A DNA stretch of 34,040 nt. Origin: Saccoglossus kowalevskii. Its lineage: Eukaryota; Hemichordata; Enteropneusta; Harrimaniidae. The notes under the pieces were generated by a model that saw nothing but the letters and a program-made list of their open reading frames with translations, did no database searches and had not been told where the DNA came from. Position 1 is the first letter of the stretch. Each line of letters starts with the position of its first letter. The stretch is taken from NCBI RefSeq assembly GCF_000003605.2, contig NW_003146774.1, forward strand, positions 195,601 to 229,640. The letters are read 5' to 3'. Positions 1,073 through 32,864 of this stretch are shown in pieces. Position numbers and translations under genes: made by a program.

Positions 1073-4000
1073 ATTGTGATCAGATTGCAGGCATTATTTT
1101 AGACCCACAGACATGTGTTCTAACCTCTGATGCTAAAGTAGAACGACTTCTTCTGTGTTATCCATCTTCAAAAAGTTGTTACGTGTGGCAGATAGTCCGG
1201 AATTACAAACCAGTGTAAGTTTTTGCTGCCACTTTTTGAAATAACATAAAAATAAGACAATACACAGCAATACATTTGGTTTTATATTATTCAGCTAGAA
1301 ATGACTATTGAATCATTCCACGAAACACATAAAAGTTCAAAGATACATGATCGGTCGCAATATTTGGCGTCATAGAATTTAACGTTGACTGCATCCCCAT
1401 GTGCAATGTGTGTGGAAACGCGTCAAACACTTCTACTACTTTGGCCACCACATTATGAACCGAATATCACATCAAACTTTGATTGTCCAGCATTTGCTAT
1501 ACGTTATTTCTTTTGTGAAACAATATAACTATTATATGCACAGGTGTAATGAAATTACGGCCCAGTCGTTAGAGGACCCAGAAACAAGAATATCAGAATA
1601 TGAGTTTTTGATGATATATCCACCATTACGACTGAAAGACACTGATGTATTGACTCCATGTCTAACACTGAATCAGGATGGTATGTTAGCAATCTATTTC
1701 TAGAACCTTTGTTACGTTTTTTTCTCTAATTAACTCGTCCAACACGAGATTTGAACCAATGACCATAGCCGTACACATTGTCACTGCAATCAGACACTGA
1801 TCTCAGTATTCTACAGTCACCGACCCTCACAACTTACAGTGTTGAAATGAATATGTAACCCAAATTTATGTTACACACCAGGACATACATATAAAGACAG
1901 ATATTCATGGTCAGTGTGACCTACTCAGTTTTCCCTCAGGAAAAAGTACATGTTCACCAGCAGAGATCCAAAGAAGTCGGCTCTAAACAATGTCTTAATG
2001 AATGTGTCCCCGGTGACCAGATGATCATGCTTATGCCGAATGTACAATGTCACCTACGACAATAACAATTATATCCATTGCATCTGACTCCTCATTTTCA
2101 GGTCTTTTAGTACCATATACCGCAACATGTAAAGCAGCTGGACCAACTCAAGTCATAATCTACAATCCAATAGAGAAGAAGGAAGAAAAGTGTTATCCCG
2201 ATCATGTAACTCACATGTACGTGTCAAAGTGTTATTCTTCATTGCTGCATGAATGTAATGAGAATGAAATAGATACATTACAATGACAGGCTCAGCAAAT
2301 TCCTAATGTACCGTGTCTCATAATATTATTCTCTATACAATAGGCTGAAGGACTACACTTTCACACAAACTAACTGTTCTTTGGTAAAATCCGATAGTTG
2401 ATGTTTTAGCAGAGAGCCATCTGAAGCTATTGTCGTAAGTATTCTATGTAATTTGCTTTGAGTAATAAAGCATTGTCAAATTAGTGGACACGAATTCATT
2501 TTTTAGGTAACAATTCCGGGTTGGCTGAAACACAAATTAGGTTCATATTCCCAATATATTCATTCTAGGTACTGTTTGACATTAGCGGTTCCATGTCATC
2601 AACATGTTGGAAGTAAGTTATTATTATTATTATTCTTTACCTATAAAGTACCATTTTGAAGTTGTTAGGCATCTTCGCCAGCCAAAGTTTATTTATTCAG
2701 TTAATTTATCGCCCCACTGTTATACCTTGGCAGAATTCCAGCTGTTAACCTGTATTCACTGTCAAATCAAACACAACGAAGCATGCTCCATGTTAAATTG
2801 AACATGAAGGCAATCGTTGTGACGCGTTTGTATGGGAAATCGAATGCGACGTCGTGCGTTTTTGGTCATACATACATATATAGAACGCCTCCGTCTAGCG
2901 TCAACTAGGTGCAATAGGTTATCTAATAATTTCAAAATTATTTAATCTATGCAAAACTGATTTTCCAAAATTAAAATAATAGTCAGTACAGCTGTGTACG
3001 TGTCTTAGAAGTTGTAGATGCACCCACGGTAGAAGGTGGTGCAGGTCAATGCGTTCTCTTAACAAAACAATTACGTAAGTAAGTGACAAGTATATTAGTC
3101 ACCATAATTGGTGAACAAAACTTGTTTCTCAAAAGATGTCTCAATCCTGGCTATGTTTACAGTAGTCAACATTTTATTTTACTTTTCTATTTATTATAGT
3201 CGTCAGATGTCGAAACTTGATGCGATCAAAAATTTATTTCATGCTTTTGCGGATAGAAGTATGGCATATAATTTCAGACATGTTATTGGTCTGACAACGT
3301 TTAACTGCACACCACATGTTGAAGATAAATGCACTGAAGCTTTCGAGAGTGTTAAGGTACGTGCCTGTTTAACTTATTGAACTTGTGGTGTTTCAATTAT
3401 AATATGTTGGATATATGATGAAATAGTTTTTGCGTATTTGTTGACCGACTTATTTAGTTGATTACTAGCGAATTGCTGTGTTATGTCTGTCATCGTTTAG
3501 GCGAGGTCCTGGACGGAACTCGACTCAGTGATTTGGAACTAATTACGAAATAACCGTCGTTATTCGGACTACTATTTCTGACAGTTAGTTTTCGCAATTA
3601 TTAATGTAGTGAACGATTAATCAAAAGATATGACGTATTCAGTACTTAGTTTGATTGGCTGTATGATTGAAGGTTACGCCCTAGAGTCTTTTTACTGCTT
3701 TGTAATTGGTTAGAGTTTTGAAAATGAATAAAGTTGTTTTTAGTTGGTCTTGGCGAGAACACCACGACAGACGCAGTCCAGTCCTGGAGAGTCTTGGGGG
3801 CGAGTCTTGACGCAACCTAGAGAGAGTCTTGGGTCAGCCTTGCGATAGTCTTGGGGACTTTTCCCCAGGGCGCTGTGTCTTATAGATCGATTAAGACGAA
3901 AGTTGAAACGTATTTTGTTGTGTGTGTCTTATTAGACTGAAGCTTAAAGTGACTTTCCCGATCCCGTACCTCAAGGGGACGCGATAGAGAGACGAGATTC

Positions 4001-7000
4001 CCCCCTGACACGTGTGGGGAACACAGAGAGAGGATTTCCCCCTGACAGATAAACAATATAAATACCGCCATCTAAATGCCTTACATCTTGCTATTATTGG
4101 GTAAAGAGCGACTATTCAATTTTGTGATCATTGTCGTAGTCAGACACAACCTTGCTTTATATAGTAAATAGTGGGGACACTGACTGTCATAAATAACAGA
4201 CAATGTCTTCAGATAGAAAAAAAACAACAGTTTTTAGTTACTCAGTGAGATTTCAATGCGATAATATTTTCCATTATATTGCATGTACATTCCTCGGCAC
4301 ATAACATTACAAATTCAAAATTATACCATGTTATATTCAATTTATTTGCTTAGGCAAAAGTACAAAGGCTTTACAGTGACGGTGGGACAGCAATGTACGA
4401 CGCTAAATTTAATGCGTTATCACAATTGAGAGAAATTGGTGTAAAGTATCTGGCATGCAAAAAGTGAGTATTTGTAAACTATTACATACCTAGCTTTCAT
4501 TACTTTATTAATTTCATTAACACATATTGTTTTATTGTAGTTACAAATCAGTGAAATGTATCTTCTTGTGGACGTTTTATGCCGACCACCTCGAAGTTGA
4601 TGCATCTACATTTAAATGTAACTAAAGTATAGAAATAACTAATTCATAGATTAAGTGTAAATAAATTGAATCTGTTGTTGGTTACGGTGTTCATCAAGTA
4701 ATGATATGCTCACATTCAATGTATTACCTGTCAACTTAATTAATGTTATGTTAAAGGAGGATTCTGTGTTTAACTGATGGGGACGACGGATCGCGACATC
4801 ACAATATCCTTGATACGACAATCGCATTACAGGTAAAAAACATTTTTTATGAAGCATGCACACATGCACGTGTACACTTAAATGCATGATCAATTAGCAC
4901 TTTCTATCATTTTCACTCACGCCATATATAAACAAAAGACTGATATAACGGCTTTCCGCATTATGTAATTATAATAAAGAAGTTATTAATGACCGTTTAG
5001 ACAACCTTCAATATATTCAAATTCTCGCTCTTCTCAAACAAGGGAGTATAAAATATAGAGTTTTTAAATTAAGCCAATTCAAAGTAATGTAGAAACATAA
5101 TCTGCCTAATAATAAAATAAATCTTATATAATCTTATGCCATATTTGTGAATATTTGGCGATTCTTCTATCTTGTTGACAGGCATCAGATATATGTCTTG
5201 ACTCAGTCTTGGTTGGCAGCAATAACAGAAGATTGCAGTGTCTATCTAGCATTACAGGTGAGCTTATATTTTGTATGTGTCAATTAGGAATAGTATTTAT
5301 CGTGAATGGCATAAGTGTTAATTGCAGACAATTTCTTTCTATTCGAATTTTTTATGTAATTTTACAGTAAATATCAATCTTTCTGAGCTCTGACACAAAC
5401 GTTACTAACATTTATTGGCTTATCAATTTCCAGGTGGATGTTGTTTTTTCCCCGAATCTGAAAAAGAAGGATTACAACTTTTTGAAATGGAAACTGTGTT
5501 GTCTCTTGGAGCTAGAAAAGATGTAAAGAAAACGTATAGCGTACGAACACAGGTATTGTATAATATTGTGACATGAAGTGTAATATTTGTTGTTAGAGGA
5601 ACTCCATGTTTTGTGGTTTGTCTAACTTAACTACGACCATTACATAATAATTCCAACCACAGCCCATGTCATGTCGCACACGCTAGCATTCACATGTTTT
5701 ACATTTACAATGACTAATTCTCGTTACCATGTCATACCAAAGCGCGACATATTATCGCATGTCATGTTTGAGCATTTAACAAATCTACAGCACTCTCTCA
5801 GGAAAAAACACACAACTCAAAATGTGTTTGACAAAATCAAAGATTTGTCAAATGACCTGAGCAAGCGGTGGCACCTTTCAATAAATTATTTTCGATATGC
5901 ACATGCTCATTGTTATACACAATATGATGCAACTCGTTTGATTAGCTTTTATTAAAAAAACTAGATAAAGAAGAAGACAACCTGTGCGAGTATTCAATAT
6001 TTATTTCCCCGAATGCTACAGTTTAGACTTTGTGGTTCTGTAGGTATGACGAAAACTTGTTGGTAACCATGTGACATTTTCTTTAAAATCCGACCAGGTC
6101 TTGCAAGTGTATGAATCGATGAATAAATCGTAAAGTTATATAAAAAAATCTTAAAAGTGTGCAGCTGCACGTCACATTGATTGGCAGCCGAATCACGTGA
6201 CCAAAAACCCATTTTCTTGCTCCAGTACATGTTATCTGCCGCTGCCATAGAAATAGCAGCATTTCGTTCAACGGCTTTCTAAAACCAGCTCACGTGACAC
6301 AAAAGGGCTCCATGACCATACAAATGTGTGTAAGGCTTGCAAACCTAGAAATCAGAAAGACAACAATAGTGTTTGGGGTTTCTAAATATAAGAATGATAA
6401 TAAAAAGTCCGTTGAGCCTTCATATGCCTGATCGCCAATAAGAAGTACAATACCGATAGGATGCGTTTCACGCTGTACACATGAATAAATTTACATCACA
6501 ATTCCATAAGCTCAACATAGTATAACTCCATTTCTATGCCGAATTAATTCAAGTTATTGATTTTTTCCAGTATGATATAGATAATTTTGTGAAATACGCA
6601 CATCCTCCTTATGATAAACAACCAGCTTACTGTGTACCAGATGGTATTAGTAAACCGGTATCAACACCTCATATGTAAGTGAAAGTGTTTGTATTGTGTA
6701 TACTAGTATGCATTATGTACTGCATTCAACCGTTGTTCTTGCATGATTTCAATATTTCCCTGCTGTAGTACATATACCTTCTTTTGTCCAAGGGTTTTGT
6801 AGAGAATAACCAGCCGTAAAGTTCAAAATATTTAAAGCAGATATGAGCTTGTGGTTAAATATGAATATACAGATTATCTAAAATGCATCACTGACACTTG
6901 TCTGTTGTAGACTTAATTTTTTTTTTACAGAAACAATTTGATTATAACATATTAGGATAATATGTAGCAGTAACATGTGCTCACTTTGAGGGGTCATACT

Positions 7001-10000
7001 TCATTACGAGCTGGTTAAACTCTCACACATACAATTAACTTGAAGCCATCAAATGAAATAAAAAATCATTATATTCAATTCAATTAATTAAACTTTATAT
7101 ATATTAAGTTTTATTATATTAAATAAAATAACAACATATACATATTGGGTTCATTGCCATGTTTATTTGGGGGTATCTCACACTAACCTTGTACGAACTC
7201 ATGTATCCGTATTATGTGCACTTGTAATCCGTTGGGTATATTTCGTGCATGTTTAATTTTGATGGCTGGTATTTTTGACTCCCACGTGAGAAATACACAA
7301 TGGGTGTTTTTGTATATGTGTGTGTATGCGTATGTATGACGTCTTTTCCACTTATATCCTAAGAACCACAGGTACGATTTCAATAAAACTTGGTACATAG
7401 ATGCTATAGTTAATGCACAGACCAAATTAGTTTTAATTATCTAATTTGTATAATGCTTAGTTAATTTTTGGCTTTTCTACTGGTATCATTTCAATGAAAC
7501 TTACTGCATATATGCTCTGGGACCATGCACAGACCTGATTAGTTTTACGTTGAAATATGCCTTTATTAATAACCTAATTTGCATATTTTTTTATAATATC
7601 TCGATAAGTATTAATCGTTTTGGTTTTGCTCCAAGACCATGGGACGACCTAATTAGTTTTGGGTTTAAATACATCCATAATAATTTTCTAGTTTGAATAA
7701 TAATTTAAATTTAGGCCACCATTTTCTTTAAAAATTAATAATCACTTTGTGATGAAACTATGCGCAGACAAGGATAGGTTTTTGGTTGAATTTCTGATAT
7801 CTCAATTTTTTTTATTTAAATTGAACTTGGGATAAGGCTATTCTAAACTATATCAGTCTGCGAACCACATATGTATAAATAAACTTTGTGAATATTGTAT
7901 TTGTAAATATTGTGTGTCACCTTACTTTCATGTTGTGCATTTCGAATAGTAGACTAATATTAGTCGCCAAGCTTTTTTTGGAAAGGCTAATCTTAAATTT
8001 TGAATTAATTTTAAATGTGTCTCTCAGCACACGGGAGTTCTTTCTAAGCTTCAATTGATTAATTCTGCTGGAAGTAGAATATTTAATCCACAATACAAGT
8101 CACCGACTTGCTAAATATAGATGTAGTAGTGCATTGATATGGTTTATTCCACTGTTGAGGTCAGTTTTTGGAAGTTTAGTTAATATATATAATATCTTTT
8201 ACCTTTTTTTTTGCTGAAGGTACTCCTATATATATGTCTGGCGCCTTCTGTATTGTAGGCAACGTTTTCGTTGATCATCTGTTTTCATTTCAATACTCTA
8301 ACAATGACAGGGTGGACAGTGTGATGTCCTCAATAATTGCTGCTATATGTCCACGTTGATTTGTTTTTGGACCTATTACAGTTCTATAATTCTACGAAAT
8401 TATGGCTCCGTTATCGCTCCGAAAATAGTTCCGTAATCAAATTTGAATTATTATTTTGATGGGTGACTGGTATTTTTTTACTTGATGTACTTATTATTAA
8501 TCTTAGATATCTGCTTTCATTGACGATTGTGTGGTTTCACACCTGTAATTAAACTTGCACATGCTTTAAAAAGCACTGTGTGCCTTATTTTGTGACCAAA
8601 TATATATAGAGAAGTTACCAAACCAAAGCATTTTACAAAGCAAGTGTTGTAACTGAAAGTAACATGTTTTTTTTTCGGCCAGTGATTTTACTGGGTTCAC
8701 TCGTAGTATGGATATATTTTTTGAAATTCTCTCTCATATGGTAAAATTGACATCTTAAGCATCGTTCTAGTGAATCACCAGGAAAAAGTTTAGTAGTTTC
8801 AATTTTGGCATTAATTTCCTGAATTGTTGTTTATTCAGTTTGCTTATAGATTTTTGTCTGTACTGTACTGTACTTATCAAGCAAGTGGTAACAGTTTTGT
8901 TGCTGAGTTTCAAAAAAGTCACTGAATTTAACCTGGATTTCAGCTCGTACTGCATGACTGCCAAATATAACATGCTTGGTGTCAAAACATAGGACACAAT
9001 ATATACTATAAGTTTTGGAAATATTATCAAACCAATAATAAAATACGAGGTTACTTATTTAAAAATAAACACTAATGTACATTGTTGTGGTGACCCAGTT
9101 ATTAAGGTCAGTTACTTTTCTTGATAATTCTAGGATTCTGAACAAAGTCGGGGGTGACTTGCAACAAGGTGGACTTTCTACTGATAAAACAGTACGCAGA
9201 AAAAAAAGTATACTCCGGGAAATATCTGCTTATCAAAAACAGCCACATCCACTTGTGTACATTTTTCCATGTGACAATAAGTAAGTTATATTATTACTAG
9301 TATATTATATAATACTTTGATTATTATGATATTGTACATTGGAACACATACACATGTTGATACGATTATTTATAACAGTCAATAATTCCTTTTCTCCAGC
9401 ATCGCTCTTTGGCGTATACTACTTGTTGGACCATTGGATACTCCATATGAAGGCGGTGTATTCTCACTATATGCTGAATTCCCAGAAAACTATCCATTGG
9501 CTGCTCCAAAAGTGCGATTTGTTACTCCAGTATCCTTTTATCATATATTCGAAACTTTGTTTTTTTATTTGAAAAAAATAAATAGTTTACAAAAACATCT
9601 GTATTGACTATTGCATTGTCAAATAATTATTCACTACACTATGTTCACCATTGAAATATCTCAATAATAATAAACGCAATACGTTAGTTCCTCAATATCC
9701 AAGATATACCATTGTAACATTAATGCTGCTGGTCGTATATGCCATAGTATATTTGATAGAGACTATACATCTCGCACACCATTCAGTAAAATTATGTTAT
9801 GCGTCTTTGGATTGCTGATCACCCCGGAACCTGATGATCCCTTGGATAGGTAATTAACAATACATATATAGCATATAATTATAGTATACTATCTTTAAAA
9901 TATATTTAATTTGAAATTTGCTATTATGTAGATATTACAATTTTTTTTGGCTTTTGTTAAATAAAATAGATTATGTTCAGTCCCACTTATAGTAAATTAT

Positions 10001-10785
10001 TACAAATATTATCAATAGTATAGCGACTTGAAATATTACAAATATTCAATAAAAGCTATGTGACATATTTGAATAACTATTTCACATTTTCAGTATCATG
10101 GCTGAAGAGTATATCACGAATCATGACGTATATAAACGCAAGGCAAGGGATCATACGCACAGACATGCAAGTAAATCGTTACAGGAACACAAACAGGTAA
10201 TGACGAAATATTTCTGACCAGACAAAATTGTTTTCACAAGTATCCTCATTTATTAGGCAAAAAATGATATACTTACTGTTTACCACACCTGCACGATAAG
10301 GTAGATATGCTTAGTTATGTTACGGCTACAAATATATATTGCAGTTCGAGGAATTAGTTGTAGTGTATCTTATAAATGATATATTTGAATACAAGTACAG
10401 TCATTTACAATTACACCAAGAGTTGTAGTTTATGATATTATGTTATTTACAGATTAGATTTATTTACGTTGTATTACAAAACTTATATACTAATGATTCA
10501 TTTACACAGGAATTGCTCGGCAATGCCCCTGCTGACTCCGAACCTCCACCACCAGAACTAATCTGTCCACTTACTGGGGAGCTGTTTGTCGACCCCGTGG
10601 GAACACCTAGTGGCAAAGTTTATGAGCGTCATGCACTGGAATCACGCCTTTCAAGAAAAAAGGAAGACCCATTGACTGGTGAACATCTGCAAAGAGGCCA
10701 ACTAAAAGAAAAGAATGACATAAAGAAACTTGTCACCGAGTTTCGTAACAGTCGAATTACGGCTGCTGCTTGGTGGCAACCATAA
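1073..10785 (+). CDS. vWA-like / UBC (E2) / U-box (E3) fusion protein, 5' end missing
   Basis: Spliced gene. Exons read as 1073-1214, 1544-1680, 2102-2216, 2344-2383, 2417-2434, 2507-2612, 3009-3078, 3200-3356, 4354-4463, 4757-4832, 5182-5257, 5434-5552, 6571-6674, 9134-9280, 9400-9529, 9704-9849, 10094-10196 and 10510-10785. All have GT/AG borders and their phases join without conflict into at least 689 codons. The first ~185 residues are unrecognised. A vWA-type domain follows (GLTTFN, GGTAMYDA, LTDGDDGS), then a linker, a UBC domain with GRIC catalytic Cys, and a U-box (ELICPLTGELFVDPV). By family knowledge the UBC domain carries ubiquitin as a thioester and the U-box recruits an E2, so the protein is inferred to be a combined E2/E3 ubiquitin enzyme, probably cytosolic or nuclear because no membrane segment is seen. 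Least certain are the 18-nt exon at 2417 and the start, which is not in view. Confidence 0.85.
3009..5552 (+). other. vWA-type domain exons of the fusion gene
   Basis: Six exons encode an alternating strand/helix fold typical of vWA domains. MSKLDAIKNLF fits the first helix, GLTTFN the following strand, GGTAMYDA the MIDAS threonine loop, and ILCLTDGDDGS the strand with the MIDAS aspartate loop. The DxSxS loop that should precede the first helix is not visible: the spliced reading there is CVLLTKQLRN. Metal binding is therefore probably lost or altered, unless a short exon was missed in the 3079-3199 intron. The usual role of such domains is protein binding. Confidence 0.75.
3439..4047 (+). 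repeat. LTR-like dispersed repeat, copy 1, inside an intron
   Basis: This ~609-bp block begins TGTTGACCGAC and ends CCCCCTGACA, giving TGT...ACA ends of the LTR type. It is closely similar to 22895-23543 in the same orientation. It has an AATAAA signal at about 3727 and a GT/CA-rich tail with repeated 'gagtcttgg' and 'ttcccccctga' words. It lies between exons 8 and 9 of the vWA-E2-U-box gene, on the sense strand. No target-site duplication or internal retrotransposon coding sequence is seen, so a solo LTR is the best guess and a non-LTR dispersed repeat remains possible. Confidence 0.65.
5671..5955 (+). other. Unassigned 94-codon open frame in an intron
   Basis: An open frame between exons 12 and 13 of the large gene, with a polar, helix-like middle (RKKHTTQNVFDKIKDL). 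It matches no family I recognise and has no clear splice sites placing it in the host gene. It may be chance or debris of a mobile element. Confidence 0.15.
7365..7700. repeat. Diverged tandem repeat, unit about 111-114 bp
   Basis: The phrase ggta(c/t)(g/c)atttcaat(a/g)aaactt recurs at 7371 and 7482, and gacc(a/t)(a/g)attagttt recurs at 7420, 7532 and 7646. This shows about three decayed copies inside the long intron 6675-9133. The rest of that intron is AT-rich with no exon recognised. Confidence 0.6.
9134..10196 (+). other. UBC (E2) domain exons of the fusion gene
   Basis: Four exons carry the E2 core. WRILLVGPLDTPYEGGVF and AEFPENYPLAAPKVRFVTP are classic UBC strands and loop. YHCNINAAGRICHSIF holds the catalytic cysteine, in the position where E2s normally have GRICL. 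TPFSKIMLCVFGLLITPEPDDPLD matches the region after the active site. The HPN motif is HCN, with Cys replacing the conserved Pro while the catalytic Asn is kept. The C-terminal helices follow (IMAEEYITNHDVYKRKARDH). Retention of Cys and Asn suggests an active enzyme. Confidence 0.9.
10510..10785 (+). other. C-terminal U-box domain exon
   Basis: The last exon encodes an acidic, proline-rich lead (ADSEPPPPE) and a U-box: ELICPLTGELFVDPVGTPSG, then YERHALESRL, then EDPLTGEHL, ending in a charged helix and WWQP. The pattern (I/L)CPLTGEL..DPV with a later DP(L)TG is diagnostic of U-box E3 ligases. It lies directly after the E2 domain in the same chain. Confidence 0.93.
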
Positions 10786-19998: not shown

Positions 19999-20391
19999 CA
20001 CACACACACGAAAAAAAATCATTCGACCTCACACACTCCATTTTTAAAAGCACACACATCATTTTTTAACACACACGTCGTTTTTAACACACACGTCATT
20101 TTTAAAAACACACACGTCATTTTTAAACACACGCCATTTTAAAAAACACACACGTCATTTTTTTAACACGCACGTCGTTTTTAAACACACGCCATTTTTA
20201 AAAACACACACGTCATTTTTAAACACACGCCATTTTTAAAAACACACACGTTATTTTTAAAACACACGTTTTTTAAAACACCCACGCCATTTAATACACA
20301 TACATGATTTTTTAAAGCACATACCATTAAAACGCACAGTCACGTCGTTTTTTAAAAATGCACACATCATTTTAAAACACACACGCCACGG
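19999..20391. repeat. CA-rich minisatellite (ACACACACGTCATTTTTAAA-type units)
   Basis: Roughly twenty irregular units of about 16-22 bp alternate CA runs with CGTCATTTTTAAA or CGCCATTTTTAAA. Units vary in CA length and in the CGTC/CGCC core. Confidence 0.85.
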
Positions 20392-22600: not shown

Positions 22601-22894
22601 TGCTCACCTTTGAATCAAGCTCTTTAAGTTTACAAAGTTTCATAAGTTTATTATTAATTGTGTCTGAGATGTAGATGACTAAAAAAGCTATTGCAGAAGA
22701 AAAAAAGAAGTAAAGACATAACAATAACATAAAGGCTACCCTCTTCTGAAAACATTCATGGAAATCTGCACGTAATTTTCTAGTTATAAATGAAAAATTA
22801 TTTCCGAAATTGGCATTTCTATAGAAACCATACCCATGTCTGTATCGAAATTTAATAGGCTCATTCTTGTGTCATGAATTTGTTTTCGCGTATC

Positions 22895-23543
22895 TGTTGA
22901 CCGACTTAATTAGTTGATTATTAGCTGAATTGCTGTGTTATGTCTGTCATCGTTTAGGCCTATTTGAAGTTTTGGACGGAACTTGGCTCAGTGATTTGGA
23001 ACTAATTACGAGATATCCGTCGCTATTTTGACAGTTGGTATTCATAATTATTAATGTAGTGAACGATTAATCAAAAGATATGACGTATTCAGTACTTAGT
23101 GTGATTGGCTTTATGTTTGAAAGTTACGCCCTAGAGTCTTTTTACTGTTTTGTAATTGGTTAGAGTTTTGAAAATGAATAAAGTTGTTTTAGTTGGTCTT
23201 GGGGAGCACAGCACGATAGACGCAGAAGAGAGTGCAGTCCTGGAGAGTCGAGAGTCCAGTCCAGGGGCGAGCCTTGAGGCAGTCCAGTCTTGGACGAGTC
23301 TTGGTTCAGCCTTGTGAGAGTCTTGGGGACTTTTTCCCAGGGCGCTGTGTCTTATAGAGTGCTCCAAAAGATCGACTAAGACGAGAGTTGAAACGTATTT
23401 CGTTGTGTGTGCCTTATTTGACTGTAAAGTTAAAGTGACTTTCCCGATCCCGTACCTCAAGGGGACGAGATAGAGAGACGAGACGAGTTTCCCCCCTGAC
23501 AAGTGTGGAGAACCCAGAGAGAAGAGAGATTTTCCCCCTGATA
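22895..23543 (+). repeat. LTR-like dispersed repeat, copy 2
   Basis: Same element as 3439-4047, about 19.5 kb downstream in direct orientation. Similarity is very high across the AATAAA region and lower at the tandem 'gagtcttgg' tail, which is expanded here. The terminal CCCCCTGATA differs by one base from the ACA end of copy 1. No retrotransposon coding sequence adjoins it. Confidence 0.65.
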
Positions 23544-25600
23544 CTTATATCAATGGTAGCTACTCCTGAAGAATCCATCAACTCTGTTTTAGTTATCATG
23601 CTAACAGTCAAGTAAAGCAAAACTATTGAACACATAACCTACTTATGGAGGTAATGACATAACGTATGTATCAAATTTAAAAAAGACTATCCAGAATATC
23701 CTCTTTCTGAATGGTGGAAATGCTTGATTTTGATGACCATAACATAATTACATGTGCAAATGTGTGTAATTGCAAAGCCATTGACTCGGATACAATGAAA
23801 TCATCAAATTTAAATCCTGATACATGCGAGTGAGTATGAATAAACAGTTTCCGGGCATTCCTTCCCTCAAAAATAAATTAACCTCAGACCCATAATAAAT
23901 TAACTACAAACGTGGAATGTTATGGGCATCTATGCGAATCAATCGAATAAGTTTAATACGATAACGTTTCAATCTTAAATGCACTGGCAACAATGATATT
24001 CAGTCGATTACAAAAATTAAGGTAACTGATAGTTTGATGACATTCACCCGATTAATCAATTTATTATTCTAAAGTAATACCGATGCACAACAAGCTTCCC
24101 TTTGTTACAGAATATTACGACATCACATTTGTTCAGACTGAGTTTCTCCAATATTGTACATACAACAGTTGAACCCTTACTACATACCAGCCAAAGCATG
24201 GCATGTTAGATACATGACTGATCTAAATATTAGTGACCCTGGATAGGAAGAGCAGTCCACATTTGAACCAATCAAATGAGACCCTTGTTAATTTGACGAA
24301 AATGTGGGCACCGTCATAAACCCATTGAGGCTTTCTCTGAGTTATATTGTTGTGAGAGTGTATGTGCAAATGTAATGTTGCGGTGGTCTAATTTATTTAA
24401 TCCATCAAAGACCCTGGAATACCGAATTGCATCCGAATCGTTTTTCAGTTAAGCTGCAATGGTTGTATTTTGCAGTGGTGGAAGTGGCCGCCATAGTATA
24501 GGGCTAACTAGTGTCAACAGTACCTACTCTTTTCCTGACAGTGCAAACAAATACTTTTTAACAACATTCTACTAAACATTCCTTTAAACATTGGAATTCC
24601 TGTATTTCAGCAATTGGTTTATATTGTATAGCCATTTCCCAGTAGAAATGAGTGGTTTATTTTTGTTGAATATCATTTATTTCTGGTCGCCAAGCAATAT
24701 GGTAGGATGTGACAATAAACTGTTAATGGTAACTAAAACACACTATCCAGAGAATATTACTATAATAAGTCATATGACACAACCTGCACTACTGCTTTTT
24801 GTAGTACAACGGGTTGTGTCAGGGATTACCAATACTATGATTCAGTTACAGCTAACATGCGACGAGTTTTTATACTTATAACAAAATGAACGCATTTCCA
24901 ATAATATTGCCAGCTACATTGATCCTGCAGTGCACTTATTTAGATTTTTTGTTTACTAACATTTTCATTTTTATTTGATATATTCATCAACTAAATAGCA
25001 GTATATCCTAGCAGTGGCATAAATATGTGTGTATTGGTATTTAAAACGACAAGTACCTTGGACAGGATTGAAGAACATAATCCTTCTATAGACCAAAATA
25101 ATCGGCTTTGGAATTGGAATGGTGTTGCCAACATATTGCATTGACGAAAATAACATAAATTGATTAAAATTAATGTAAAATTTAGTAAATATCAATTACA
25201 TACCGTGTTACTCCAACTCTGGAAAGGTCAAACTGATAGATTTACTTGATGATCAGCAAATAGAATAAATTCATAATAAAGTGAACTATCCATAGAAAAG
25301 TTGAAGTATGTATCTGAAATGATAAGCTGCATCAATTACAATTAATATACACGTTTTATTTGTCCCATGACTGCATTTATTAGATGTTCTGTGTTGAGAA
25401 CTGTTGTCATTGTCATACAACAGAGCAGAGCTATTCATATAGGAGATTGTTCACCATTGTCATCGTTTTTCATATCCGCATCTGCATCTCCTTTTGCTGG
25501 TAACAATTTTTTTCTGCAACCCGAATACCTAATCGGCCAACCTCTATAACAGATGTCTTCATTTGTAGTGATAACTCGACTTCTTAGTGCAGTACGTCCA
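23544..25600. other. Intergenic, nothing coding recognised
   Basis: AT-rich DNA with isolated frames of fewer than 100 codons, the longest at 24591-24881, hydrophobic and without family features. A hairpin is annotated separately at 24776. Confidence 0.5.
24776..24820. repeat. 45-nt hairpin with 9-bp perfect outer stem
   Basis: GACACAACC (24776) pairs with GGTTGTGTC (ending 24820), and an inner ACTAC/GTAGT stem surrounds a T-rich loop. It could be transcribed as a small structured RNA or be a palindromic repeat end. Confidence 0.4.
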
Positions 25601-25747: not shown

Positions 25748-27798
25748 ATGGCATTAAAACAGGAAGATGACATCCAAGGACATAGAACAAGTCGAGAGGT
25801 GCATGGTGCCACCACAATTGCTTATCGCAAATACAGACGTGAGGGGAAAAAAGCAGAGGAGTACGCCGCGGAATCGAAGGCTGATGCCATGGCCGAATGG
25901 ATCATATTCGACCCCAATAAACACGACTCCGTATCATTTGAAGATTTCTTGGAAACCAATGTTCCGTCACAAATTTATAGGTATTCTTCCAGTTTATAAC
26001 TGATCCTGACATATATATGTATATATATTGCAGGTAACTTGCATTTAACCTTTGGACTTTTATTGACGTGACCCTTATATGAGTACACCGTGATACATTT
26101 CTGACAAACGATGTATTTGTCGACGGATTATTAATTTGCTTTTACATAAAAAGTAAAAACGTGCTGGCCAGAATTGTGCTAATTGTGTGGCTTGTTTTTT
26201 GTATTATTGCACCGCGCTGCAATTTATATGCTGTATAGCCAGACGATATGAGCACTTATCATATAAATACCTTCAAAATTTCAAAATAATTATTTATAAC
26301 AATTGGTTATTTCATAATATTAAAATGTATTATATTTGTATCTTTTCTAGACAGACTGGTGTTGGTTATATTTGCGTAAAAAGCCCATATGGAAGTGAGG
26401 ACGCAAGACTACGAGAAGTGTTGAAACTCCTGCAACAGTCCGATCGATCAATCCGCTATCGAAATATATCCCACTTAGCTATGGCACATAACGTGATTTC
26501 ATACATGTATGCAGTTAAGATTAGATACTTGTCTATACATTGCAGTTTTATAAGTTTTTATTGTTTGTAAATTGTTAATTAATATCATTGGCCTTGCTAC
26601 GTTATATCTTAACCGTGTCGTTATGTTTGACGTTGTACAAAGATTTTACGTTCGAAAATGTACGTAGCCATAATCCAATTATAATAGGTCATATAAACAA
26701 CTTCGAAAATGTAACAAATTTTCTACTGATTATTCAACGCATATTGACAGAAACCATTTCAAAAACAATATTGTCACTTCGGCACATCCTGTTCGTATGC
26801 CTACAATATTGTCACATCTCAGCCAAGCCGCGTGTGTCAATTCCTTTGATTTACACATTGAATAATGGAATTTTATTCCAACATTCAAGTTGTAATTATT
26901 AATGTCACTTATTATATCACAGGAGAGGAAACTTCATATGCACATTTCCAAAATACATACATATTTATTCGTAATTGGAACGAAAGCTTTCTGGTCAAAA
27001 TGCTGATGTCAATTGAAATGACAAGTTTCGTTGTCCTTCTGTCAAGCACAACTATGTTTTGCGCTTGTGACAATTGTGACACATTACGATAAGTCATGAA
27101 TAGGTTTCAATTCAATTCTTTCGCTTTATTAGTTGCTTTATTGGAAACATATCACCTTTTCCATTTCCTGAGCTAAAAAAATCATAACAGGAATTGTTAA
27201 ATATTTAAATATGAACAATAATGGCAAGTGATCTGCATATCAATAATAGGTTGTAATTGGCTTTATTTTATTTTCCAGGCAGACTGGTTTTGGCTGGTTG
27301 CTCAAACCCCCTCCTTCAGATGATACTATATATGTCAAAGGTCTACAGGAAGAGTGGGAACTTTTACAACAGTCTGGTCGACCAATCAATTACCATACAA
27401 TATACGACTTGGCAAAGGCACATCATGTGACTTGCGGTAGTTGGTTGATACACCTTGATCCAGGCTTTAAAGCAGACCATGCCTGGCATGCTATTGCCAC
27501 GGCAACAGTAAATGCACAATTAGGAACACGTGCCCAGATAACAGCTTTTAATTCCGCCATTGATGATTACCAACATGTGATCAGTGTTTTCAATGCTGAT
27601 TTCACAGATAAACAACAGGTATATGATCTTGAGAATAAAATTCGTGCTGTGGGAATTAAATGTGAGATGAAATACAAACCTTATGTTTATACGCAACTTG
27701 GTATTTATAGAAACAACAAGTGGGGATTGAGACCTACTATATATAGAAGTAACTATGTACTGCATCAGGGTTCAATTATACAGGCACTATATGACTGA
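25748..27798 (+). CDS. C11orf68/Bles03 (DUF1917, UPF0696) homologue
   Basis: Two core exons, 25748-25980 and 27279-27798, join in phase to give 250 residues, close to the family length as I recall it. The ATG at 25748 opens a charged N-terminus (YRKYRREGKKAEEY), then AEWIIFDPNKHDSVSFEDFLE, the start of the Bles03 fold. The second exon carries QTGFGWLLKPP, a strand reading WLIHLDPGFKADHAWHAIA, TVNAQLGTRAQI, HVISVFNADFTDKQQVYDLE and the C-terminal YVYTQLGIYRNNKWGLRPTIY, all strong family signatures. The family has an eIF4E-like fold; its cellular role is poorly known, so no function is claimed. The intron contains a second copy of the start of exon 2 (26351-26506), which may be included or skipped. 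Confidence 0.88.
26351..26506 (+). CDS. Duplicated internal exon of the C11orf68-like gene
   Basis: After a TTTTCTAG acceptor this 156-nt segment encodes QTGVGYICVKSP...LLQQSDRSIRYRNISHLAMAHNVISYM. It is homologous to the first ~52 residues of the last exon (QTGFGWLLKPP...LLQQSGRPINYHTIYDLAKAHHV). It ends before GTATGC, has no stop, and its phases (2 in, 2 out) allow inclusion between the two core exons without shifting frame, giving 302 residues. The copies have diverged considerably in protein sequence while splice sites and frame are kept. Whether it is spliced in is unknown. Confidence 0.55.
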
Positions 27799-28040: not shown

Positions 28041-31000
28041 ATATAAGTGTGGTTTTATTGATGGTGTTATTTTTGATGTAAATGTAGCCGAATTGCTCAC
28101 TTCACTGCATGCCCATTTCATGTCATGAAAGAAAACAATGAAATCTTAAACCAGCACAAAGTAACAATTAGGTATTATCATTTACAATAGAAACTTGACT
28201 GTAGAGACTGCAGTTCGGAGGGCATGTTTTGATAAAGGCTTGGTCACAGAAACTGCATTCTACCTCAGAATATTGACCACGTCAGAAGAGCTAGAAAGTG
28301 TTACAGCAGAGACCTTGAAGGAGGGTATGACCAACACACCACAAAAACCTTTACAGTTCTTTGAAGTTCTCTATATATGGGTCTACCATGCATTCAGAAA
28401 ACGAAAAGATTCAACGACTTGTTCAGTCAGTCTCAGGTGATGTAATCTTTGCAACAACACGGGCAAGAATAAAGCCAAACAAACATATATGCCTGGGACT
28501 AGGCTCGAAAAGTTTTACGGGAAATAGAAAGGTGTTAGATATTCTAAATAGATTTGGCCACTGTTTTGAATACCACACCGCAGAGGCTATAGAGACTGAT
28601 TTAGCAACTGAAATATCAGACAGGTGTTGTGCTACACCAGATGGTTTATACGAGATGCCTGGCGTCTGTACTGCTCTTGCTTGGGACATTTACAATAATG
28701 AGACCCTTTCAGGCAGTGGAACTCTCCTTGATACAGTTGGTATTTGTTATCAGAATGATGAATTTGACATTACGGATATTGTACACACCAGTAATGTCCA
28801 AGAAGAATCTACTTTTACAACCAGTGAACATAGTAGAACACAATCCAAAAGATCGAAACGTTCATTTCATACAACGGAGACCACTCTTGAGCCCTACAGA
28901 AAAAAGCCAAAAACAAGTGATTTTCATTATGCTGTCAAAGATATTCTAGAACCTAAATATTATAGAACACAGAGATATATTTTGGATGATGAATGCAACA
29001 ACGTCAGAAACATCCATGTGGGCTGCATGGAATACCTTAGTGACTGATGACCCACTGTCAAAACAAAAACTTGCTTACATGGAGAACCTCAATTTACCAC
29101 CTACAAGGCTGGATGTGATAGCTGAAACCCTCAACATTTCCCAGCATGTGGCCAGAGAGTATGGGCAGGAGTTTTGCTGTTGTGCACTATGATTTTGCTG
29201 TGACCAAAGCTACCATGCTGATACAAGCAGAATATGCCCCAAAGCATGACAACATCTTCATATGCTTTGAACCATTCCACGTCTAGTTGGCTTATTTTGG
29301 TGCTTTAGGACACATTCTGGTTGGCTCTGGAGGTCCAGATATCTTGACAGAAACAAAGGTTCTAGCACCTGGATCACTCAATAGGTTCCTACTAGGAAAG
29401 CATTACAACAGGTAAAATCACAATCATTATAATTTCCTTTCTATATTTCAAAGTCATCTGCTACTTTTCTATACTTTTCTGTGTCTTTCTTTATTCTTGC
29501 AAAATTTACACTATTTTGTGACTGTAGGACTACCTAAAATACATTTACTCTTATCTGAAATGAATTTGTTGTATATATAATGCACTTAATTTTTCTTTAT
29601 TTCATAGATGTAAGAGGTTACATCCTATATTATCAACAGCCTTCCAGTGACTACCAAGATATCATGACAAGTACACAGAATATATTGAGTTCACAATGTC
29701 TGTTGAACATGGAAGTATGGCGTGATTCTGGATGCTATAAGTCAAGCATGTACATATATTTCTTTTGTTTAGTCGAGCATGCAGGAGTAACAACCTAGAC
29801 CTGTTCATCTATGCCTTAGATCAGAAGCTTCCCATCTTTTTCGCAGGAAATAGGCCCAGTTATGCTCGTTAGATGGTAAGATATTCTTTGAACATAGATG
29901 AAACACATCCAGGAGTGCGCAAAATCTTGGAGGATGGTTTCCCTTTCAGTGAAACGAACCCCGAGGACGTTTTCGAGGACTCCGGTTGATATGGCTCTTG
30001 AACAAACAGTGAATGCAGATGCTGCATCACGATTAACAGGGATAGCTTCATTTAGTCAATCAAACACTGCAAAGAGACGCTGGATAGTGACCAGATCTAT
30101 GAGAAGCAGTATTGTCAGTAACCTGATGACCAAAGCCGGATTGAAATCTACTGAAGATATCACAAAAGGGCTCAGCCATACAGAATAAACAATGGGCAAT
30201 GAAGATCTGCAGAAGTTGATTGAAATGATCCGGAGAAGCATGAATCCATTCACTCAAAAGCCACATGAAAACCTACATCGTATCTCAACAGGAAAGAAGG
30301 TAGATGATGTAATAAAAAATGATCTCTTAAACTGTGTTCAAAGGGGGCAAGCATGGTGTGAGGAGTTCAAAACCAGTTGTTTTGAGGACCCATCCCGCTT
30401 CTAGAAACCAATTCCTAGAAGGAAAGTAAAAATCTTTGCATCTACTGCTGTAAGGCAAAAGACCAGTGCAAATTATGCGAAGATTAAAGAGGTGGTAGGA
30501 ACCAGAGATTTATTTGGAAGACTGCTTTATCTCAGCACAGTTGAGGAACTTGGCTTACAATTCGTATTCAAATACCCTCTAACACCAGTTCCACTCTCCT
30601 TGGCTCATATAGATGGATCTCTAAACAAGACAGACAAAGCTAAACTATTACACAAAATTGAAGGAATGGTAGAAAGTACAGCTCCAGATCACATCAGTGT
30701 CACAGTTGTAGATGCTATGTTTCTACTGCGTGCACAGAAAAATCTACCTTCAACATATGGTGATGTTGCAGCACATATTCTGGGCATACTATGCTCAATG
30801 TCAGAGTGAGTTGACTCTGTGTGTGACACATATTTTAGTCCCTACATCGTGGACTTGTAGATGGACCGGCGTGGATCAGAGGAGACAGCATTTTTCATCA
30901 CAGACAGTGAACAAAAGATACCTAAGGATTGGCAACAAGCAATGAATTCACCATCTTTCAAAGATTCCTTGTTTCGATTCCTGGCGTCAGAGTGGGTTAA

Positions 31001-31958
31001 GAGTTCTTATGCATATACCTTTAATGGTCACCAAGTCTACTTGGCGTATGATACAGAGTGTCTTCGCTTCACTGAAGCAAATGGAGAAGTTGTCAAAGAA
31101 ACAGTAATTTCATTGAGGTGTAAGCATAAAGAAGCGAACACTGGGATGATTTACCATCGGTGCCACATATTCAACGAGACAAATGATGCAAAAATCAATG
31201 TCAGAAGTAATGGCACTGATGTGTTTATACTACTCTTATATCATGTTGCACATGTAACAGGAGCAAATCAAAGTCAACCCAGGGTATGGATGAATGTAGG
31301 CCAGAGCAGTAATAACACTCATTGCTACATCAACATCACACAACTCGCTGTCCATCTTGGTCATCGGGAATTAAATATCCTGGATTCACTCCCTGGTCTC
31401 CATTCTTTCACGGGATCAGACTACACGGCATCATTTGAAGGGAATTCGAAGCCTTTTGCTCTCATGATATCAAAACATTTGCAGAGCTAGGAAAGAGCAG
31501 GAACATTTCTCAGCATCTTTTGTCTAGTCTTGAGCAGTGTGCCTTATATGGGAAAGCCATTTTTACCGATGTGGATAATGCCCGATATGCCATGTACCAG
31601 CAACATTATGCACCTAAGAGGAAAGAAGATTGCATGGGGAGGATTAAAGGAGTAAACCAAAGCTCTATGCCACCCAGTAAAACAGTCTTGCTATACACAA
31701 TCAAGCGTGCCAACTTTGTAGCTTCAATGTGGAAAGATGCCAACTTACCAGAACCATGCCGATTTCAACCCGAGGACAATGGTCATGCAGGGTGGGTTTA
31801 TATCACATTAAATGGTTTGGAGGAGAGCGAGTTCCTCAAGTGTTCATCAAGTTTTAAACAAGGATGACTGGAGGGAAGACAGCGCCGATGACGAAATGGC
31901 CTATGAGGAAGCGTTGTATGGCTATGATGAATCTGATGCCGAGGACAGTGATGGGTGA
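28041..31958 (+). pseudogene. Broken copy of a multicopy invertebrate family with PIN/FEN1-like C-terminal motifs
   Basis: Coding remains run on one strand in shifting frames: RYKCGFIDGVIFDVNVAELL (28041), LTVETAVRRACFDKG (28195), KHICLGLGSKSFTGNRKVLDILNRFGHCFEY (near 28478), FAVTKATMLIQAEYAPKHDNIF and LAYFGALGHILVGSGGPD (near 29190-29340), GKHYNR/CKRLHP across an intron (29412-29608), GFPFSETNPEDVF (near 29935), EQTVNADAASRLTGIASF (near 30000), SNGTDVFILLLYH (near 31205), LPGLHSFTGSDYTASF (near 31390), and an acidic tail to 31958. From memory, intact relatives read SPDTDV and TGCD at the last two sites, acidic motifs of a PIN-like fold; here the first has Gly for Asp and the second Ser for Cys. 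At least eight stops or frameshifts break it. Its function is unknown. Confidence 0.75.
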
Positions 31959-31959
31959 T

Positions 31960-32706
31960 TGTGGAAACGTTTTGGGTATTTATGTACAGTGTTTTTGCAT
32001 AATATAAGCAATACCAAACAACACTAGCTAGTGATGTTCATGTTTAATCTGTTCACTATGCATTATAACGAAATTAGCAGGAAGTGAAATATGTATTTTT
32101 TTTATTTGCATAAATAAGAAATACATAAATGAAAGTTAAGTGAGATATTTAGTTAGAATATGAGATCCGACTCTAATACATATTATTCATTCTGTGACTT
32201 TGCTTTTTTCAAATTTATATAGGTATATTGTGTTGCAGAATGTTGATCAGTGTTGTCAAATACATACCAAGAGGGTAAACATATCATAAACATACCAAAA
32301 TGTAGCATGTATTCATAGATTCACGAGGGTGGGGGTGGGGGCTGTGTTTGGTTAGAGATTTGCATATATAATGTACACAAAAACAAAATTATTATCCCCA
32401 TATTATAGCAGAAACACTCTAAGTTTTTGAATGTTACCAAATTTGTTGTCCTGGTAGCATGTAACTACAGCTATTTTTTTTTAAATATCCAACTGCCTGT
32501 TAGTCAGACTCGAGCAAAACGAGCCAAAATCGGAATGGGGATACCCTGATTTAAAAGCAAATAAAAAATCTGTCCAAGTAATTTTTTGTCAGACTAGCAC
32601 ATTTGAAATCTACGCATATTTTTACACTAGAAACAAGTCTCTAACCTTTTGGCCTCGAAAACATAAATAAAAGTTCTGGGACTAATTGTTTAATACATGT
32701 AATTTG
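31960..32706. other. Intergenic, AT-rich, nothing recognised
   Basis: No supported coding segment. A short 'gggtgggggtggggg' run occurs near 32328-32342. Confidence 0.55.
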
Positions 32707-32864
32707 AACACATCGCTGAGAGACGAACACATCGCTGAAGGACGAACATGTCGCTAAGAGACGAACACATCGCTGAGAGACGAACACGTCGCTGAGAGAC
32801 GAACACATCGCAGAGAGACGTACACATCGCTGAGAGACGAACACATCGCTGAAGGACGAACACC
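32707..32864. repeat. 19-bp minisatellite, about eight copies
   Basis: Consensus unit AACACATCGCTGAGAGACG repeats eight times without indels, plus a partial unit; substitutions include CGTC/TGTC and GAAGG variants. Because 19 is not a multiple of 3, the minus-strand open frames across it (reading LSAMCSSLSDVFVSQR) are a by-product of the repeat rather than a gene. Confidence 0.92.

Follow-up and report, generated by a model that had tools for sequence, protein, structure and literature searches.

A 16-exon gene at the beginning of the window

The subject of this analysis is a gene of the hemichordate Saccoglossus kowalevskii that joins a von Willebrand factor A (vWA) domain, a ubiquitin-conjugating enzyme (E2) domain of the UBC fold and a U-box. 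It lies in a stretch of 34,040 nucleotides, hereafter the window (contig NW_003146774.1, positions 195,601 to 229,640 of the forward strand), which forms the end of this contig, called C3729 below. On the + strand, between 1073 and 10785, 16 exons with AG/GT borders, which were picked by reading and then located on the sequence, join in phase into 635 codons with a lone stop as the last of them. The spliced protein, of 634 residues, carries vWA, E2 (UBC) and C-terminal U-box in a single open frame. When the openness of each exon was estimated from 3000 random placements on window DNA outside the 16 exons, the product of the per-exon chances put an open chain of this kind at about 10^-14.4, a figure that is not corrected for the choice of exons by eye.

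An earlier note on this DNA, made from the letters alone, had described 18 exons of mutually consistent phase, with the gene starting at 1073. The phases are indeed consistent, but the number of exons found is 16, and the alignment to the two copies described below leaves no piece missing from exon 1 to the stop. The start proposed there has to be abandoned: since the open frame that precedes 1073 (from 985) contains no Met, and since the copies have nine and eight further upstream coding exons, 1073 is the start of an internal exon, the window begins inside the gene, and the 5' exons lie outside it. A search of Rfam gave no match within the window.

Two further copies of the gene

The genome searched was the S. 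kowalevskii assembly, a draft of 572 Mb that is split into 4830 contigs and interrupted by stretches of N; 30 exon matches to the Wnt family mark it as an animal's. A U-box search returned 7 exon matches, 3 of them beside UBC matches. The window gene is one of these three loci; the others are a tandem copy, with its U-box 20.8 kb upstream, and a third copy located on a second contig (C2076). The spliced protein, used as query, gave 44 exon matches as best candidates, and beyond the three loci the E2 part alone was matched.

Exon-by-exon models of the two copies show the identical domain order and share 73% (tandem copy) and 55% (third copy) of their residues with the window protein, and none of the three gene models contains an internal stop. 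Exon lengths equal those of the window gene in 14 of 16 exons of the tandem copy (one of them set by hand) and in 11 of 16 of the third. Because the exon search demanded AG/GT borders and the phases of the window gene, ranking candidates by their similarity to the window peptides, the agreement in borders and phases is to some extent built in. This does not apply to how similar the translated exons are, as tblastn run without such guidance recovers the same similarity. The claim of the earlier note that vWA, UBC and U-box share one open frame is supported by the two paralogues, in which the domain order recurs and the linkers are conserved. In exon 14 of the tandem copy (C3729:182361-182508) the donor is apparently GC, with the border set by hand; GT is present here in the other two genes.

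Domains and key residues

A profile search of the spliced protein, which the earlier note had proposed as a check, placed all three domains above the Pfam cut-offs: UQ_con (PF00179) at residues 394-529 (E 7e-35, 120.1 bits against a cut-off of 27), U-box (PF04564) at residues 557-624 (E 3.4e-14, 53.2 bits against 21.4) and, for the vWA domain, both VWA_2 (PF13519, residues 138-251, E 2.5e-6) and VWA (PF00092, residues 138-303, E 5.6e-6), each above its curated cut-off. VWA_CoxE and VWA_3 fell below theirs, nothing else in Pfam passed (no BIR in particular), and NCBIfam returned nothing beyond weak matches of vWA type, far below cut-off.

As a single sequence the vWA domain found no convincing vWA chain in the PDB, where the best match (E 0.029) was a beta-propeller, BUB3; the profile of the three copies matched the vWA chain of CLCA with E 6e-4. 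Residues D143, S145, S147, T218 and D250 are invariant in all three copies, and we take them to be the metal site, the first three of them forming the DxSxS motif. In the UBC domain the catalytic Cys473 (in GRIC), the HCN and the DDP are kept in all three copies, and in the U-box the PL, DPV and DP positions, as aligned with E4B, are retained. The positions of these features are collected in Table 1, together with other features of the window.

Table 1. Exons and features of the window gene, followed by other features of the window
Feature	Position	Strand	Basis or remark
Exons 1-8	1073-1214, 1544-1680, 2102-2216, 2410-2434, 2569-2612, 3200-3356, 4354-4463, 4757-4832	+	
Exons 9-16	5182-5257, 5434-5552, 6571-6674, 9134-9280, 9400-9529, 9704-9849, 10094-10196, 10510-10785	+	
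Exon 1	1073..1214	+	In the copies, next after the U-box-like exon; would carry the end of that stretch (weak); no Pfam match
Exons 2-3	1544..2216	+	Conserved stretch, fold unknown; no PDB or Pfam match
vWA domain, exons 4-10	2410..5552	+	Pfam; three-copy profile
DISGS (presumed DxSxS metal site of vWA)	2578..2592	+	D, S and S the same in all three copies
Most of the vWA-UBC linker, exon 11 and start of exon 12	6571..9209	+	Linker is residues 323-390
UBC (E2), residues 394-529, exons 12-15	9210..10154	+	Pfam
HCN where HPN is usual	9710..9718	+	Alignment with UBE2E, which also has HCN
Catalytic Cys473 of UBC	9740..9742	+	Aligned with the UBE2E Cys; invariant in 3 of 3 copies
UBC-U-box linker, residues 530-556 (27 residues)	10155..10548	+	Split by the last intron
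U-box, residues 557-624	10549..10752	+	Pfam; PDB sequence alignment
Gly600, linchpin position	10678..10680	+	Aligns with Arg of E4B DPFNR
Repeat in an intron of the window gene	3418-4042		See text
Stretch resembling that repeat	22880-23550 (approximate)		Seen by eye
Tandem array, ACACACG-rich units	20030-20292		Several overlapping periods
Reading frame matching the Bles03 family	27250-27798		PF08939, E 1.1e-15; query protein made by joining two frames of the window
Successive long reading frames	28331-31867	+	Three tested; none matched Pfam with E up to 0.1
Tandem array, 19-base unit	32706-32863		8.3 copies

The N-terminal part, read in the copies

The N-terminal exons of the two copies were assigned by hand, guided by their similarity to each other. 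The tandem copy has nine further exons, starting with an ATG, before the counterpart of window exon 1, giving a model of 1027 residues in 25 exons, and the third copy has eight further upstream coding exons, giving 1038 residues in 24 exons, with the start exon not located. Here the third copy contains a probable ubiquitin-like (UBL) domain that scores 28.2 bits, above the Pfam cut-off of 25.4. A profile of the UBL of both copies matched polyubiquitin chains in the PDB, but its best E, 9.5e-6, is driven by their repeats, and matches to single ubiquitin were weak. Another UBL-like stretch, by the N-terminus of the copies, is not claimed, as PDB and Pfam gave just one match at chance level.

A second U-box-like stretch is only suggested. 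It is degenerate, appears to span the border to window exon 1, for which the evidence is weak, and gave no match in Pfam; when it was compared with the C-terminal U-boxes, the six pairwise scores were reached by 0, 0, 4, 18, 24 and 12 of 2000 shuffles. The stretches between this part and the vWA domain, and after the UBL, had no PDB or Pfam match. The domain order read in the copies is a probable UBL, an uncharacterised stretch, the U-box-like stretch, a further uncharacterised stretch, vWA, UBC and U-box. Of the three-domain architecture in the earlier note, the order of vWA, UBC and U-box stands, but the description was incomplete, as the copies add the probable UBL and the weak U-box-like stretch upstream.

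Constraint between the copies

Over 634 codons, the window gene and the tandem copy differ at synonymous sites with a proportion (pS) of 0.59 and at nonsynonymous sites with a proportion (pN) of 0.165, which gives a pN/pS of 0.28 and a synonymous divergence (dS) of about 1.15. UBC is the most constrained domain of this pair (pN 0.082, pN/pS 0.19), and the ratio is 0.24 for the U-box and 0.45 for the N-terminal part; the vWA domain has 0.23, with pS already saturated there. The vWA-UBC linker has a ratio of 0.35 at 57% identity, and the UBC-U-box linker one of 0.13 over 19 codons, against 0.42-0.46 when the third copy is compared. Towards the third copy synonymous change is at or near saturation, and the ratios of the segments range from 0.23 to 0.55.

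A blastn comparison of the tandem genomic regions gave 13 matches, of which 12 were exonic (one spanning the short intron 12) and one was an intronic repeat. This repeat of the window gene is 76% identical to that in the tandem-copy region, and a similar stretch seems to reappear further downstream in the window (Table 1). Exon 14, which encodes the E2 active site, reaches 93.5% DNA identity to the tandem copy over 155 bases (9699-9853), whereas the other exon matches are 71-84% identical, perhaps owing to local gene conversion or to strong constraint.

A proposed single-chain ubiquitin enzyme and its alternatives

The reading that we favour, by a little over even chances, is that this three-gene family encodes a single-chain multidomain ubiquitin enzyme. 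An ordinary ubiquitin-activating enzyme (E1) would charge the UBC cysteine, so that the UBC acts as an E2; the U-box, on its tether of about 27 residues, would engage the UBC of its own or of a partner chain and help to discharge ubiquitin from it; and the vWA domain, with the N-terminal parts, would bind the target or a larger complex. These steps would be expected with Cys473, the HCN and DDP, the vWA metal site and the U-box contact positions all kept.

Several observations weigh against this reading. The SPA loop of UBE2E is replaced by TSR in the window and tandem copies and by TPD in the third, and the Phe of YPF, at a contact position, is Leu in all three; we take both to be residues through which an E2 contacts its ubiquitin ligase (E3). 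At the linchpin position of the U-box, typically Arg, the window copy has Gly, the tandem copy Arg and the third copy Lys. The U-box exon, folded alone from one sequence, gave a poor model (predicted local distance difference test, pLDDT, 56.5). In the tandem copy the UBL scores 20.1 bits as an N-terminal piece and 15.4 in the whole protein, below the cut-off, and a search for the 5' exons of the window gene found none where the flank is readable, N making up more than half of it.

The earlier note had proposed that such a fusion would bypass E2-E3 selection and that the vWA module could supply the substrate. A substrate role of the vWA domain is a possibility, but the changed SPA loop and the Gly of the window copy speak against an easy mechanism in cis. 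Because of this Gly the window copy may have less ligase activity than the tandem copy, whose linchpin Arg makes it the better candidate for a full E2-E3; the window copy may thus be weaker, regulated or partner-dependent.

The same features feed the strongest alternative, which we regard as unlikely though worth serious weight: that the E2 and the U-box sit on one chain without cooperating, each serving other partners, or the U-box being merely a binding or dimerisation module. The altered SPA loop in all three copies and the Gly of the window copy fit this, and a review terms linchpin contacts essential for the action of RING and U-box modules in its available part (PMC5095918). That part, however, also describes FANCL, which lacks the linchpin residue, and according to the available text of another paper (PMC12919000) the linchpin is frequent, yet not required in every case. 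Against non-cooperation there are also the Arg and Lys of the other two copies, and the constraint on the short linker in the tandem pair, though it is weaker towards the third copy.

That the UBC might be a non-catalytic scaffold, with the protein binding ubiquitin instead of transferring it, is improbable. The residue two past the catalytic Cys is Ser in the window protein and Asp in UBE2E, as a scaffold would allow, but Cys473, the HCN and the DDP are retained in all three copies and the UBC is the domain under the strongest constraint in the tandem pair.

We consider it very improbable that the vWA, E2 and U-box exons form two or three separate adjacent genes. An intron of 2.5 kb (6675-9133) does divide the vWA from the UBC exons, but the order is repeated in three copies on two contigs and the linkers are conserved and in phase. 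Four Met positions are common to the three copies. The last of them is residue 312, inside the vWA domain, which leaves no shared start codon for a UBC or a U-box protein on its own and makes separate E2 or U-box proteins from this locus unlikely. One chain is by far the likeliest reading of the locus. An assembly error or a decaying gene, for which the draft state of the assembly with its N runs and the unread 5' part of the window gene could be cited, is almost certainly not the explanation, with the order recurring in diverged copies on two contigs, no internal stop in three models and a pN/pS of 0.28; both this and the separate-gene reading were set aside once the two copies had turned up.

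Relation to known proteins

BIRC6 and UBE2O are E2/E3 hybrids. The available part of PMC11354881 names them, with UBE2Z, among the larger multidomain E2s, and set beside the window protein by description they share with it a UBC within a large multidomain protein. BIRC6, as described in the accessible text of PMC2964712, has BIR repeats, whereas the window protein has a U-box as its ligase module, plus a vWA domain. The same text reports a UBCc domain in fungal clade 6A PARPs, which resemble the window protein in holding an E2 catalytic domain inside a larger enzyme and differ in that the UBCc is partnered with PARP instead of vWA and U-box.

UBE2E proteins (PDB 9p1q, 9lul, 1y6l, 5lbn and others) gave the top scores for the 51-residue core of the UBC and share with it the IYHCNIN motif and the catalytic Cys, but they are stand-alone E2s with an SPA loop, whereas the window UBC lies in a fusion and has this loop changed. 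Descent from UBE2E is not established by this, because the best PDB scores for the whole UBC were those of yeast Ubc13 chains. Also among the PDB matches of the UBC are engineered single-chain E2-RING fusions, including fusions of BRCA1, RING2, RNF168 and MIB1 with UBE2D; in one such entry, 8v0d, the E2 comes first. For the U-box the best PDB sequence match is LubX, a bacterial U-box protein, and E4B and CHIP share with the window U-box the U-box core and the aligned E2-contact positions. To our knowledge, neither E4B nor CHIP has an E2 within the same chain.

No vWA-UBC-U-box protein was found in the paper literature searched, which did not extend to protein databases, supplements or papers behind subscriptions; entries of this kind may well be present in databases for other invertebrates. 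The term VWA does not occur in the main text, as available, of a survey of ubiquitin-system architectures (PMC4327156), and the accessible part of PMC2408969 holds nothing relevant to this architecture. In viral contigs and prokaryote genomes, 176 and 164 stretches fitted two short peptide patterns each; none was confirmed as a relative.

The nearest published architecture that we met is that of Mb_UBOXa of Monosiga, which combines vWA and U-box and has relatives in Naegleria, Trimastix and Spironucleus, as described in the available text of Marin 2010 (PMC3087547), which also reports that a gene of this type was lost early in animal evolution. Compared by description, it resembles the S. kowalevskii genes in having vWA and U-box on one protein; it differs in that it belongs to a protist and has no reported E2, whereas these are animal genes with a UBC.

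Extending the reading of a single-chain enzyme, we tentatively suggest, with less than even confidence and from sequence comparison, that the family could be a one-chain UBL/vWA/E2/U-box machine of some animals, with the vWA domain binding targets. Its E2 and U-box would have co-evolved a private interface, of which the changed SPA loop and the varied linchpin would be signs, and the charged E2 would be brought to one target set without free pairing of E2 and E3. It would then be either a survivor of the vWA-U-box gene that was reported as lost from animals, to which an E2 was added, or an independent fusion.

As far as the gene models go, what the window holds is a genuine fusion within a single animal gene, conserved, apparently larger than the earlier note described and kin to the multidomain E2s and the vWA-U-box proteins. 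The pairing of E2 and E3 is a central specificity problem in the ubiquitin field, which single-chain E2-RING proteins were engineered to address. A conserved E2-U-box chain occurring in nature, in three paralogues with different residues at the linchpin, would be a ready experiment on a ligase module activating its own E2.

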